Shown piece after piece: positions 23,107 through 28,627 of a stretch of 64,000 bases of DNA. The translations under genes and the position numbers were made by a program. Position 1 is the stretch's first letter. The number at the start of each line of letters is the position of its first letter. Location: assembly GCF_000746095.1 (NCBI RefSeq), contig NZ_JQKP01000002.1:186001-250000 (forward strand), read 5' to 3'. The notes under the pieces are model-generated. The model saw nothing but the letters and a program-made list of their open reading frames with translations, was not told where the DNA came from and ran no database searches. This DNA is from Ferriphaselus sp. R-1. GTDB taxonomy: Bacteria > Pseudomonadota > Gammaproteobacteria > Burkholderiales > Gallionellaceae.

Positions 23107-23574
23107 TCAGTGATGATGGTGGTGCTCGTGCCCTTCGGTGGTCGCCGTCAGTGGTTTGATGTCGGCACTGGCCTCGACCTGTTCACGATGCTTGTCGGCG
23201 AACTCCACGGTCAGCGTGAAAGCCACGCTGTCGCCCGCCTTGAGCGGCTGCTTCAGGCCCATCAGCATCAGGTGATAGCCCTCGGTGGCAAGATCCAGCG
23301 GCTTGTTGGCGGGCAGCGGCAGCGCTTTGACGGCGTGCATCATCATCATGCCGTTCATCTGCATCATGCGATGCAGCTCGGAGCTGCCGGCCACCGGGCT
23401 GGACACGGCGACCACGCGCGCGTCTTTACCGCTGCTCAGCACGCACTGGATGGAGGCGCTGTCCTGACCCGGTGCCGTGGCCCGCGCCCACGCTCCCGTT
23501 ACCTTGACCTCTGCCGCAGCGGCAGAGAACGCCGCCAGCAAGCCGACCACACCCACCAGAATCAATCTTTTCAT
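23107..23574 (-). CDS. periplasmic copper chaperone PCuAC
   Basis: This is a 155-residue protein with a signal peptide ending near AFSAAAA. The copper(I) site of the PCuAC/DUF461 family is complete: His68, Met79, His101 and Met103 reproduce H-x10-M-x21-H-x-M. The C-terminus ends in a His-rich tail (GHEHHHHH), a second possible metal site. PCuAC proteins deliver copper to the CuA/CuB centres of cytochrome oxidases in the periplasm. The ATG at 23574 has GAGGAGAGG upstream. The gene is divergent from the RegB-like kinase and shares a 114-bp intergenic region with it. Confidence 0.93.
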   Translation of the reverse strand: MKRLILVGVVGLLAAFSAAAAEVKVTGAWARATAPGQDSASIQCVLSSGKDARVVAVSSPVAGSSELHRMMQMNGMMMMHAVKALPLPANKPLDLATEGYHLMLMGLKQPLKAGDSVAFTLTVEFADKHREQVEASADIKPLTATTEGHEHHHHH

Positions 23575-23636
23575 GTCACCTCTCCTCAAGCCAAAATCTC
23601 CCGCGCGCATTCTAAACGGAAAGGCCGCCCGCTTAC

Positions 23637-23653
23637 TGCGACAATTCGTCGCA
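23637..23653. promoter_or_regulatory. RegA/PrrA-type palindrome
   Basis: TGCGAC-aattc-GTCGCA is a perfect 6-bp inverted repeat with a 5-bp spacer. It fits the published RegA/PrrA consensus GCGNC-Nx-GNCGC exactly. It sits between the divergent PCuAC and regB-like genes. A TAGAAT -10-like hexamer (23676-23681) lies just before the kinase ATG, so the site would be at or upstream of the -35 region. Confidence 0.55.
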
Positions 23654-23688
23654 CCCTCCGCTCGGCCCGATTGCGTAGAATGCCTCCC

Positions 23689-25038
23689 ATGAATCTTTCC
23701 CTGCTCGCCGACTCCACCGGCCACAGCCACCTCAGACGACTGGTCGTCCTGCGCAGCATCGCAGTGCTGGCGCAGATTGCCACGCTGGCGCTAACCTACC
23801 GCTTCCTGGACATGGCGCTGCCCTGGCTGCCGATGATGGCCACCATCGCCGCGCTGGCCGGGCTGAATCTGCTGAGCTGGTGGCGTTTGCGGGCGACACG
23901 CCCGGTATCGAACCCGGAACTGTTCACCCAACTGTGCGCCGACGTACTGGCCCTTTCCGTACTGCTCTATTACGGCGGTGGCTCGACCAACCCCTTCGTT
24001 TCGCTATTCCTGTTGCCGCTGGTGATCGCGGCGGCAACCCTGCCCGGTCGTTTCACCTGGCTGATGGCCGGTGTGACCACCGCCTGTTACACCTTGCTGA
24101 TGAAGTTCTACGTACCGCTACCGATGCGGCACGATGCCATGGACCACAGCATGATGGGCCATGACATGGTGGGGATGGAAGATATGGCCGGCCACGACAT
24201 GGCCATGATGGACATGCCCACGACCCCCGACACTGCCTTCAACATGCACGTGTTCGGCATGTGGCTCGGCTTCGTCATCAGCGCGGCGGTGGTCGCCTAT
24301 TTCGTGGTACGCATGGCCCAGGCGGTACGCGAACGCGACGAAGCGCTGGCGCGTATCCGCGAGGAGACCTTGCGCAATGAGCGGGTGGTGGCGCTGGGCT
24401 TGCAGGCCGCCAGTGCCGCACACGAACTGGGCACGCCGCTCTCCACTCTGGCCGTGGTCATCGGCGAGCTGCAACACGAGGCCGCTGCCCTGCCCGAATG
24501 GCGCGCAGACCTCGCCCTGCTGGACGGCCAGGTGCGTAACTGCCGCCGCATCCTCGACAAGATGCTGGCCAGCGCTCAGGACACCGCCAGCGGCACCACG
24601 CGCACCGAGCCGATCGACCGCTTCCTGCTCGAAACGCTGGACGAATGGCAGCTGCTGCGGCCCACCGTGCAATGCAGTTACACGCCGACCACCACGGGCG
24701 GCACGCCGCAGCTCGATTTCGATCCCGCGCTACGCGCCGCCCTGCTCAACCTGCTCAACAACGCTGCCGACGCATCGCCGGAAAGGATCGCCGTCCAAGC
24801 GCGCTGGAACGCACAGCAACTGGTGCTGGAGATCCTCGATTATGGTTCCGGGCTGACCCCCGAGGCCGCCACGCGCGCCGGTTCCGCCTTTTTCACCACC
24901 AAGCAGGAAGGGCGCGGCCTCGGCCTGTTCCTGGCCAACACCAGCATCGAGCGCTTGGGCGGCAAAGTACGCCTGTTCAACCGCACCGAGGGCGGTGCCA
25001 CCACCGAAGTGACCTTGCCTCTGGGAGCCTCCGCATGA
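23689..25038 (+). CDS. regB: RegB/PrrB-like redox sensor histidine kinase with Met/His-rich loop
   Basis: This is a 449-residue membrane kinase with about six hydrophobic segments, including the ubiquinone-binding signature GGGSTNPF (96-103) of the RegB/PrrB/RoxS family. The phosphoacceptor is His245 (SAAHELGTPLSTL). Cys285 in QVRNCRRIL lies where RegB has its redox-active cysteine. A C-terminal HATPase domain follows (NLLNNAADASP, GRGLGLFL). Between predicted TM5 and TM6, on the periplasmic side, residues 146-176 hold 11 Met, 4 His and several Asp, resembling a copper-binding loop. The frame stays open further upstream, but only over antisense DNA; ATGs at 23680 and 23689 are both possible starts. 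The stop overlaps the regulator start. Confidence 0.9.
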   Translation: MNLSLLADSTGHSHLRRLVVLRSIAVLAQIATLALTYRFLDMALPWLPMMATIAALAGLNLLSWWRLRATRPVSNPELFTQLCADVLALSVLLYYGGGSTNPFVSLFLLPLVIAAATLPGRFTWLMAGVTTACYTLLMKFYVPLPMRHDAMDHSMMGHDMVGMEDMAGHDMAMMDMPTTPDTAFNMHVFGMWLGFVISAAVVAYFVVRMAQAVRERDEALARIREETLRNERVVALGLQAASAAHELGTPLSTLAVVIGELQHEAAALPEWRADLALLDGQVRNCRRILDKMLASAQDTASGTTRTEPIDRFLLETLDEWQLLRPTVQCSYTPTTTGGTPQLDFDPALRAALLNLLNNAADASPERIAVQARWNAQQLVLEILDYGSGLTPEAATRAGSAFFTTKQEGRGLGLFLANTSIERLGGKVRLFNRTEGGATTEVTLPLGASA

Positions 25039-25583
25039 GCACGACACCGTCCGAACAGCCCTCGCTGCTGCTGGTGGATGACGATGCCACGTTCTGTGCC
25101 GTCCTCGCCAAAGCCCTGCTGAAACGCGGCTTCGCCGTCACCAGCGCCAACAGCGTCGAGCAGGCTCTGCCGCTGGCTGCAGCCAATCCGCCCGAGTTCG
25201 CCGTGGTTGATCTCAAGATGGACGGAGCCTCCGGGCTGGTGCTGGTCAAGGCGCTGCACGAGCTCGACCCGGCCACCCGCATCGTCATGCTCACCGGCTA
25301 TGCCAGCATCGCTACGGCGGTGGAGGCGATCAAGCTGGGCGCGACCCAATATCTGACCAAACCCGCCAACGCCGATGAGATCATCGAGGCCTTCGGCCAT
25401 GCCGCCAGTGCCGACATCGAGCCCAACGTCCAGCCGACCTCGGTCGACCGTCTGGAATGGGAGCATATCCAGCGCGTGCTGCAGGACCACGACGGCAACG
25501 TCTCCGCCACTGCCCGCGCGCTCAACATGCACCGCCGCACCCTGCAGCGCAAACTAACCAAGCGCCCTATTCTCGATAACTGA
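25035..25583 (+). CDS. regA: RegA/PrrA-like response regulator
   Basis: This is a 182-residue regulator with a receiver domain (phosphoacceptor Asp59 in VVDLKMDG, conserved Lys109 in LTKPA) and a short Fis-type helix-turn-helix, GNVSATARALNMHRRTLQRKL, typical of the RegA/PrrA/ActR group. The partner is the kinase encoded immediately upstream (ATGA overlap at 25035-25038). In this family it controls respiration, carbon and nitrogen genes according to the redox state of the quinone pool. A RegA-type palindrome upstream of the kinase suggests autoregulation. Confidence 0.92.
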   Translation: MSTTPSEQPSLLLVDDDATFCAVLAKALLKRGFAVTSANSVEQALPLAAANPPEFAVVDLKMDGASGLVLVKALHELDPATRIVMLTGYASIATAVEAIKLGATQYLTKPANADEIIEAFGHAASADIEPNVQPTSVDRLEWEHIQRVLQDHDGNVSATARALNMHRRTLQRKLTKRPILDN

Positions 25584-25663: not shown

Positions 25664-27343
25664 ATGTCCGTCCCCGTTCTCGACTTCAAATCCCATCTTT
25701 CCGAGCTGTTCGCGCAGGCACGAGCCGTCGTCGCACCCGAACTGGCCGATGCCCCCATCGTGATCGAGCGCCCCAAGCAGGCAGCCCACGGTGACTACGC
25801 CTGCAATCTGGCCATGCAACTGGCCAAACCGCTGCGCAAAGCGCCGCGCGACATCGCCAATGCGTTGATCGCCGCCTTGCCGCAGACCGATTTCATCGAC
25901 AAGGTGGAGATCGCCGGAGCCGGGTTCATCAACGTGTTCATCGCCCCCGCCGCCAAGCGCCGCGTGGTGGCGGGCGTGTTGCAAGCGGGCGCCGGCTACG
26001 GCCATGTTCATGTCGGCCAGGGCCGCAAGATCCAGGTCGAGTTCGTCTCCGCCAACCCGACCGGCCCGCTGCACATCGGCCACGGACGCGGCGCTGCCGT
26101 GGGGGATTCGCTGTGCCGTCTGCTGCACGCAGCGGGCTGGAACGTGACGCGCGAGTTCTATTACAACGATGCCGGACAGCAGATCGACAACCTGACCCGC
26201 TCGGTACAGCTACGCTGCCGTGGCCTCACGCCGGACAGCCCGGAGTGGCCGGAAGACGGCTATCGCGGCGACTACATCGTGGACGTGGCCAACGCCTTCA
26301 TGGCCAAGGAGTCCGTGGTCTCCGACGACCAGCAGTTCACCGGCACCGGCAACGCAGACGATGCCGAAGCCATCCGCCACTTCGCCGTGGCCTATCTGCG
26401 CCGCGAGCAGGACCTCGACCTGCGCGCCTTCGGTGTCGAGTTCGACGTGTTCTCGCTGGAGTCCGCGCTGTACACCGAGGGCAAGGTGGATGCCGCCGTG
26501 ACCCAGCTCATCGCCAGCGGCCATACCTACGAGCAGGACGGCGCGCTGTGGTTGCGCACCACTGATTTCGGCGACGACAAGGATCGCGTGATGCGCAAGC
26601 GCGAGGGCGGCTACACCTATTTCGTGCCGGACGTGGCTTACCATCTGGACAAGTGGGGGCGCGGCTTCGAGCGCGTCATCAACGAACAGGGCGCGGACCA
26701 CCATTCCACCATCACCCGCGTGCGCGCCGGCTTGCAGGCGCTCAACGTCGGCATCCCCAAAGGCTGGCCGGAATATGTGCTGCACCAGATGGTCACGGTG
26801 CTGAAGAATGGCGCGGAGGTGAAGATCTCCAAGCGCGCCGGCAGCTATGTCACCCTGCGCGACCTGATCGACGAGGTGGGTTGCGATGCCACGCGCTACT
26901 TCCTCGCCGCGCGCTCGCCGGATTCGCAGTTGGTGTTCGACATCGACCTGGCCAAGGCGCAGAGCAACGACAACCCGGTGTACTACATCCAGTACGCCCA
27001 CGCGCGCATCTTCAGCGTGTTGTCACAGTGGGGCGGCGAACACCGGACGCTGCTCGGTGCCGATCTGTCCAGCCTGGACAGCGACTACGAGACGGTGCTG
27101 CTGCAGAAGCTGATCGACTTTCCGCAGGCCGTGGAGAGCGCCGCACACGACCTCGCGCCGCACCAGATCGCCGTCTACCTCAAGGATTTGGCAGCCGATT
27201 TCCACAGCTACTATAATGCCTCGCGTTTTCTGGTCGAGGACGAGGCGGTCAAGCTGGCGCGGCTGGCACTGATCGCGGCCACGGCACAGGTGATGAAGAA
27301 CGGTCTGGCGCTATTGGGCGTCAGCGCACCGGAATCAATGTAA
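25664..27343 (+). CDS. argS: arginyl-tRNA synthetase
   Basis: This is a 559-residue class I aminoacyl-tRNA synthetase, within the normal ArgRS length. It has the N-terminal Add-1 domain, the HIGH motif in [13 protein letters not shown], the KMSKS-equivalent KISKRAGS, and the C-terminal DALR anticodon-binding domain ([12 protein letters not shown], then [14 protein letters not shown]). It charges tRNA-Arg. It heads a plus-strand group with the SPOR protein, dsbA and an SDR. Confidence 0.97.
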
Positions 27344-27355
27344 GGAAAGGGCGGC

Positions 27356-27982
27356 ATGAGCAAGAACATGGTTGGACGCGCACCCGCGCCAAAGAAACCT
27401 TCCGGCAAGGGCGGCGGGCTGTTCGTCGGCATCTTGCTGGGCATGGTGTTCGGCCTGGTGGTCGCTGGTGGTGTCGCCTGGTATCTGATGAAGCTGCCCA
27501 GCCCGTTCACCAAAGTCGAGCAACAGCCCGACTCCCCGGTGGTGGACAAGCCGCTGGTGCAGGAGCCGCCCCGCATCAACCCCGCTCCCGCCGCCCCGGC
27601 CTCCAGCCCGGAAGAGAGCAAGCCACGGTTCGAGTTCTACAAGGTGCTGACCGACAAGAAGGATGCGAGCGTGCCGATGCCGCAGGCTCCCGCCAAGATC
27701 GAAGACCGCTCCTTCAAGCCCGACACGGCGACTGAGGCCACGGACAACACCAGCTATTTCCTGCAGACCGGCTCCTACAGCTCCGAGGCCGATGCCGAGA
27801 ACGAAAAGGCAAGGCTGGCGATGCAAGGCATGCTGGCCAATGTACAAAGCGTGTTCGTGCCGGAGAAAGGGCAGCGTTACCGCGTACGTCTGGGGCCCTA
27901 CAAAGGTGCTGCCGAGATGAACAAAGTCCGCACCGCACTGAAACAAATCGGGGTGGAAGCCACTCCAATGCGCGCCAAGTAA
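27356..27982 (+). CDS. SPOR-domain membrane protein (FtsN-like)
   Basis: This is a 208-residue bitopic protein: a basic N-terminus, one transmembrane helix (GGLFVGILLGMVFGLVVAGG), a Pro-rich periplasmic linker and a C-terminal SPOR domain (SYFLQTGSYSSEADAENEKARL to YRVRLGPYKGAAEMNKVRTAL). SPOR domains bind denuded peptidoglycan at the septum. The layout is that of FtsN, and the gene sits after argS as FtsN-like genes do in many betaproteobacteria. Without the short essential FtsN motif being identifiable, I do not assign ftsN. Confidence 0.88.
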   Translation: MSKNMVGRAPAPKKPSGKGGGLFVGILLGMVFGLVVAGGVAWYLMKLPSPFTKVEQQPDSPVVDKPLVQEPPRINPAPAAPASSPEESKPRFEFYKVLTDKKDASVPMPQAPAKIEDRSFKPDTATEATDNTSYFLQTGSYSSEADAENEKARLAMQGMLANVQSVFVPEKGQRYRVRLGPYKGAAEMNKVRTALKQIGVEATPMRAK

Positions 27983-27997
27983 GCAATAGGAGAACAC

Positions 27998-28627
27998 ATG
28001 AAACTTGCATTCAGAAACCTGCTGGCCATCGCCCTGATTACCGTCGCGGGCTATGCCCAGGCCGCCGTTCTCGGCAAGGACTACACCCTCATCGAGCCTG
28101 CCCAGCCCACGGCAACCAATGGCAAGATCGAGGTGCTGGAGTTCTTCGCCTATCCCTGCCCGCATTGTCACCATCTGGTCCCCGAACTCAGCGCCTGGGC
28201 GAAGAACATGCCCAAGGATGTCGCGCTGACCTACGTACCGGTGGTGTTCCGTGACTCCTGGGAACCGATGGCTTACACCTTCTATGCACTGGATACGCTG
28301 GGCCAGCTGCCCAAGCTGCACGATGCCCTGTTCGATGCCTGGAACGTGTCGCATACCGAGTTGACCTCGATCGGGCAGATCTCCAACTTCGTTGCCCAGC
28401 GCGGCGTGGACAAGCAGAAATTCACCGATGCCTATCGCTCGTTCTCGGTTCAGTCCAAGGTCACCCGCAGCAAGCAGATGGTGCTGTCCTATCGCATCCA
28501 GGGCACGCCCACTCTGGTCGTGGATGGTCGCTATGCCATCACCGGCCTGCAACCTGCCGACATGATCCGCGTGCTGCGCGAACTGACCGACCAGGTGCGC
28601 AAGGAGCGCGCAAGCAAGAAGCGCTGA
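27998..28627 (+). CDS. dsbA: thiol:disulfide interchange protein DsbA
   Basis: This is a 209-residue periplasmic oxidoreductase. The signal peptide ends around YAQA at 19-22. The active site is Cys54-Pro-His-Cys57 (YPCPHCHHL), and the cis-Pro loop GTPTLVVDG is intact. It introduces disulfides into exported proteins and is reoxidised by DsbB, which is not in this window. Good spacing and AGGAG upstream support the ATG. Its TGA overlaps the next start by one base. Confidence 0.94.
   Translation: MKLAFRNLLAIALITVAGYAQAAVLGKDYTLIEPAQPTATNGKIEVLEFFAYPCPHCHHLVPELSAWAKNMPKDVALTYVPVVFRDSWEPMAYTFYALDTLGQLPKLHDALFDAWNVSHTELTSIGQISNFVAQRGVDKQKFTDAYRSFSVQSKVTRSKQMVLSYRIQGTPTLVVDGRYAITGLQPADMIRVLRELTDQVRKERASKKR

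Follow-up and report, generated by a model that had tools for sequence, protein, structure and literature searches.

The regBA locus of Ferriphaselus sp. R-1 encodes a redox sensor kinase with a loop crowded with methionine and histidine, and next to it stands a gene for a copper chaperone. Does this kinase respond to copper, or is copper supply something that the RegBA pair controls? We analysed a window of 64,000 nucleotides, the whole stretch of DNA under study, compared the locus with its relatives and set the outcome against a first-pass annotation made from the sequence alone. The features discussed below are collected in Table 1.

Table 1. Features of the pcuAC-regBA locus, with positions in the window
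Feature	Position	Strand	Description	Basis
pcuAC	23107..23574	-	PCu(A)C-type periplasmic copper chaperone, 155 aa	PF04314, 4.2e-33
RegA-type palindrome GCGACAATTCGTCGC	23638..23652	.	candidate site inside the 114-bp pcuAC/regB gap	
regB	23689..25038	+	group 2-like redox sensor histidine kinase, 449 aa; six predicted membrane helices	NF033792, 2.8e-77
GGGSTNPF	23974..23997	+	quinone-site heptad region, residues 96-103 of RegB	sequence read
Met/His-rich loop	24124..24216	+	predicted periplasmic loop, RegB residues 146-176	
His245 of RegB	24421..24423	+	phospho-acceptor in HELGTP	invariant in 32 sequences
Cys285 of RegB	24541..24543	+	redox-cysteine position	invariant in 32 sequences
regA	25035..25583	+	response regulator with Fis-type HTH, 182 aa	PF00072 and PF02954; NF033791

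The RegB kinase and its RegA partner

The first-pass annotation had named the kinase as RegB-type on the strength of GGGSTNPF, His245 and Cys285. These numbers fit a start at 23689, which is used here (an alternative in-frame ATG lies at 23680), and G97, G98, N101, P102 and F103 of the quinone-site region are as invariant in the 32 sequences as the two other hallmarks. Cys285 is presumably the equivalent of Cys265 of Rhodobacter capsulatus, an assignment taken over from that annotation. An AlphaFold2 model based on the 32 sequences (mean pLDDT 72.8, pTM 0.45) predicts helices at residues 12-40, 46-68, 75-96, 102-117, 120-139 and 180-264, placing six membrane helices ahead of the kinase part. 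The structure comparison covered this kinase part (residues 231-448), and a PDB sequence search with RegB found 13 sequences, all matching the same part.

RegB scores 260.4 bits with NF033792, the model for ActS/PrrB/RegB, below the curated cut-off of 350, which no match in the 275 genomes sampled from the class passes either; RegB is therefore filed as group 2-like, which we take to be RoxS-like, and not as the alphaproteobacterial equivalog. RegA also remains below the curated cut-off of its model (NF033791, 2.3e-61, 206.8 bits against 250). The pair resembles the group 1 RegB/RegA systems of Alphaproteobacteria (PrrB/PrrA, ActS/ActR) in its six membrane helices, the GGxxNPF motif, the phospho-His, the Cys and the adjacent regA, whose start overlaps the stop codon of regB. 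Unlike group 1, both proteins fall under the cut-offs of their family models, RegB has a 31-residue Met/His-rich loop and RegA has no Cys156. With the RoxS/RoxR-like (group 2) RegB proteins of Gamma- and Betaproteobacteria, the kinase shares a helix 5-6 loop bearing His, an H-x-x-GMW start of helix 6 and a RegA-type box upstream. It differs from other group 2 RegB proteins in that the loop is expanded and Met-rich, and in that copper genes adjoin regBA in the family.

In R. capsulatus copper is bound by RegA, whose Cys156, a residue common to group 1 RegA proteins, forms a disulphide (PMC9147068). The sole cysteine of the present RegA is Cys21, and with Cys156 missing a copper switch of the R. 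capsulatus type is ruled out. Any copper input would thus need another entry, for which the RegB loop is the obvious candidate.

The genome encodes a further, orphan RegA paralogue (L098, 359-868, minus strand; contig C1 near 297328), which has a nearly identical HTH (TARALKMHRRTLQRKL) and an Asn where RegA has the aligned phospho-acceptor Asp. Two adjoining RegA-type palindromes lie ~630 bp upstream of it, before an intervening ORF. Such a protein is possibly a phosphorylation-independent competitor of RegA. Downstream of regA itself, positions 25664-28627 of the window carry genes that were assigned by eye to arginyl-tRNA synthetase, a membrane-anchored protein and a DsbA-like protein with CPHC.

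The Met/His-rich loop of RegB

Residues 146-176 of RegB, MRHDAMDHSMMGHDMVGMEDMAGHDMAMMDM, were described in the first pass as a periplasmic loop between the fifth and sixth membrane helices with 11 Met, 4 His and several Asp; counting gives 11 Met, 4 His and 6 Asp. At 15 of 31 residues this is the top 31-residue Met+His stretch among the window's stop-to-stop frames of at least 100 residues, and the one other stretch in the window with at least 11 Met+His is the antisense frame of the loop itself. Met and His stand at a spacing of one or two 14 times, against a shuffle mean of 10.05 (0.0056 of 5000 shuffles were as high), while MxxM, HxxM and MxxH taken singly show no excess over shuffles of the loop residues. 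In the AlphaFold2 model, residues 146-179 are disordered (pLDDT <50); they connect helices 5 and 6 on the far side of the membrane from the kinase. Since the kinase is cytoplasmic and follows helix 6, the loop should be periplasmic; the predicted topology agrees with the earlier placement and rules out a cytoplasmic one.

The closest relative, a genome of the same genus (G470) whose kinase is 90% identical to RegB, retains all 15 Met and His residues of the loop, and the five changes all fall among the other 16 residues. Meanwhile 11 of 12.5 synonymous sites in the loop differ, which is nearly saturated, and three of the four His codons are silently changed. With a dN of 0.079 the loop is near the kinase part (0.068). 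By these counts, selection acts on the loop within the genus, and in its close orthologue it is neither absent nor random. A chance composition is ruled out by this selection together with the window-wide Met/His maximum.

Outside the genus, the helix 5-6 loop is hypervariable, from PLPHNHQHDGDSAF up to >100 residues. Under a slightly wider definition, loops of at least 25 residues occur in 34/50 and 18/38 sequences of two family sets, in 2/15 elsewhere in the phylum and in 0/61 in the rest of the class. They occur in 0/29 sequences over the NF033792 cut-off, where the loop by the wider definition has at most 21 residues and few Met; from the cut-off and a Caulobacter control, these sequences are probably alphaproteobacterial. 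Scoring took in 50 of 51 and 38 of 40 sequences of the family sets, 61 of 80 for the class, 15 of 20 for the phylum and 29 of 30 over the cut-off. The share of His in the loop is 10-13% in the family and class sets, compared with ~2% in the remainder of the same proteins. Met makes up 7-11% in the family sets versus ~3% in the class set, and its enrichment goes with expanded loops. A family member with 0 Met in its loop (L035) shows that Met content is not conserved family-wide. Mapped by lineage, the composition to which the first pass had drawn attention is fully kept, as to Met and His, in the same-genus relative, and its Met content is not kept across the family. On these alignments, a short His-bearing loop is general in group 2-like RegBs, and the host family is marked by Met-rich expansion, which is strong in the window's genus.

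Among the long helix 5-6 loops, those of L036, L041, L054, L058 and L392 contain a recurring YCRTEP/FCRTEP-like ([FY]C-x-T-x-P-like) stretch, as judged by eye. The periplasmic Cys of such loops could be a metal ligand or a redox switch.

In its residues the RegB loop looks like a copper ligand set, and copper sensing through it is plausible, with some results speaking against it. CusS has a folded sensor domain between two helices. RegB, unlike CusS/CopS, is predicted to cross the membrane with six helices and to have a disordered internal loop, and the matches listed in a profile search of RegB included none to CusS/CopS families. What it would share with these copper-responsive kinases (PMC7763554) is a proposed periplasmic copper input. 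In Met/His-rich composition and predicted disorder, the loop is like SilE, which is described as disordered (PMC5008109), and like PcoE and CopM; unlike these free periplasmic proteins it is an internal kinase loop and a putative metal binder.

Copper genes and a RegA-type palindrome beside regBA

The divergent neighbour of regB is, as the first pass had it, a PCuAC with a complete copper site (H68-x10-M79-x21-H101-x-M103) and a His tail (HEHHHHH). In the family, copper-type genes stand on the opposite strand, upstream of regBA, in four arrangements: PCuAC alone; a copper receptor of the TonB-dependent type that passes the TIGR01778 cut-off, usually accompanied by one or two PCuAC; a second kind of TonB receptor, which passes no NCBIfam (copper-family) cut-off, mostly with PCuAC; and MbnP with MbnH. 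At L024, L037 and L392, it is MbnP/MbnH-type copper protein genes that replace PCuAC beside regBA. With the low-complexity filter on and a cut of 45 bits, 52 loci of relatives had PCuAC near regBA in 39 cases, a TonB copper receptor in 10, another TonB receptor in 11 and MbnP in 3; the corresponding numbers for 100 control RegB loci elsewhere were 2, 2, 8 and 2. Without the filter, PCuAC was found near RegB in 5/80 class loci (L152, L169, L183, L196 and L213). Nothing closely homologous to the L008 copper receptor is present in the Ferriphaselus genome itself (best match 3.4e-5).

Outside one 12-genome clade, a copper-type gene is near regBA in 63/68 family rows, the exceptions being L013, L050, L372, L380 and L389; 40 of 60 family genomes were taken up. 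On a tree of 80 kinase cores, five neighbour states need 22 changes (minimum 4, shuffled mean 42.1). This tree merges 86 rows by identical kinase cores, leaves out L016, L051, L052, L054, L056 and L376 as cut or partial, and draws on two family sets that overlap in species. Chance adjacency of pcuAC and regB is ruled out by the 39/52 against 2/100 in controls and by the repeated switching of genes at the same place. The copper link at which the first-pass annotation had hinted thus extends across the family and, as far as gene neighbourhoods tell, is stronger than was claimed there.

The separate clade consists of 12 genomes of one genus with a short loop, no CcoN match at 1e-100 and no copper-type gene in any of the 12; this combination may be a single evolutionary event. 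Seven other family genomes have no CcoN match, and five of these still have a copper-type gene, so the tie of the copper link to cbb3 is not strict. Relatives with a minimal or short His loop have the same copper neighbours near regBA, which means that loop expansion is not needed for the copper link. Short His-bearing loops are also common in class members without copper neighbours. A FapA-like gene sits between the copper genes and regB in L012, L014, L017, L018, L053, L380 and L381.

The region shared by pcuAC and regB contains a candidate RegA site (Table 1). The pattern GYGRC-N5-GYCRC is present in 38/46 family regB upstreams, with 0.48 expected from dinucleotide shuffles, and 37 of the 38 sites begin 38-62 bp ahead of the regB start; in the rest of the class it is present in 42/66 (shuffles 1.38). 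The scan comprised 46/52 family loci, 300 bp and a full N-terminus being required, and 66/80 class loci. The half site is similar to RegR boxes such as TGCGACATCGGCGGC in the tabulated part of PMC4064962, and we infer that the palindrome is a RegA binding site. RegA-type sites also precede ccoN in 7/30 family loci (shuffles 0.19). Before SCO1, a site occurs in the genome's own copy alone of 22 scored (22 of 30 loci, 8 being dropped when the anchor motif was not found), too weak a basis for SCO1 as a conserved RegA target. Over the whole of the same genome the box is not enriched relative to a reversed control (loose 67 vs 158, strict 12 vs 13); being no commoner than that control, the box alone is too weak to define a genome-wide RegA regulon.

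In L009 and L026 a separate RegA-type site lies ahead of PCuAC. The four loci L014, L017, L018 and L381 have the site at the copper-gene end of the FapA-like insert, and L012 and L053 have none before the copper gene, their site being the one before regB. Elsewhere in the Ferriphaselus genome, a perfect RegA-type palindrome, GCGACAAAATGTCGC, is found just upstream of a gene (L088, 475-1443, minus strand; contig C1 near 200624) whose product weakly matches the outer-membrane beta-barrel domain PF13505, below cut-off. The PCuAC neighbour can, on this pattern of sites, be a RegA target rather than a clue to the signal of RegB.

Copper as a possible output or input of RegBA

We think it probable that regBA of Gallionellaceae is coupled to the supply of copper to heme-copper oxidases, with RegA acting at the shared region, and hold copper binding by the loop with less confidence. 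A reduced quinone pool would be the signal of too little working oxidase. RegB would then phosphorylate RegA, which would act at the shared pcuAC/regB region, presumably in the direction of more copper to the oxidases, and would also set the level of regBA itself. Less confidently, the Met/His loop, as an expanded form of the His-bearing loop found in this RegB group, may be a periplasmic binding site for Cu(I)/Cu(II), close to the quinone site, that tunes the kinase. A bolder version, which we put forward tentatively and lean against, lets the Gallionellaceae RegB sense two things, the quinone redox state within the membrane and copper through a fast-evolving periplasmic loop of Met/His and, in some lineages, Cys, so that RegBA would match copper import, copper chaperones and heme-copper oxidases.

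The strongest competitor, somewhat unlikely in our judgement, confines copper to the output: the copper genes would be RegA targets because oxidases need copper, RegB would sense quinone and oxygen only, as in Rhodobacter, and the loop would be a tolerated spacer without a sensory role. This reading is favoured by a loop whose length and Met content vary widely beside a constant kinase with constant hallmarks, and by the unchanged copper neighbours of short-loop relatives, and the RegA-type box would account for the adjacency of pcuAC and regB. Against a mere spacer stand the 15/15 Met/His retained in the same-genus relative, where five changes hit the other 16 residues and synonymous sites are nearly saturated, the enrichment of loop His in the family and class sets, that of Met in expanded loops and the non-random Met/His spacing.

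That the loop's metal is iron, zinc or nickel instead of copper, or that the loop serves as a periplasmic redox or pH element, is improbable. Such a role would suit the short His-bearing loops of group 2 RegBs that have no copper neighbours, the Cys in the [FY]C-x-T-x-P-like stretch of long loops such as L036, L041 and L058 (by eye) and a host family known for iron oxidation (PMC10734462), but the prevailing residue in the window's genus is Met, a soft Cu(I) ligand, and it is copper genes that lie next to regBA. It is most improbable that PCuAC is beside regB by inheritance or chance without a functional tie, since the gene type, for all the gene order common to related genomes and the clustering of labels on the tree (22 changes, where shuffled labels average 42.1), switches many times yet stays copper-type in 63/68 rows, and controls have PCuAC, the TonB copper receptor and MbnP in 2/100 each.

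The tie of regBA to copper supply has a counterpart in R. capsulatus, where cbb3 genes are RegA-controlled and senC goes with regBA (PMC9147068); the parallel with senC drawn in the first pass is supported by that paper. Both loci include a copper chaperone gene, but it is PCuAC here and senC there, and senC was not among the genes read around the present locus. The text of PMC12914433 ties a family of TonB-dependent copper importers to oxidase function, with a few operons containing PCuAC genes, and the word RegB is absent from that text. In titles and abstract starts of the open-licence literature, where subscription journals are mostly missing, we found no report of RegB arranged with copper genes.

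RegBA is a widespread redox switch, and in the literature consulted its copper link comes from Rhodobacter, namely senC in the operon and copper binding by RegA (PMC9147068). A parallel link in another lineage, built by repeated recruitment of different copper genes to one position, speaks for copper supply as a central task of RegBA, and with it copper sensing by RegB becomes directly testable.
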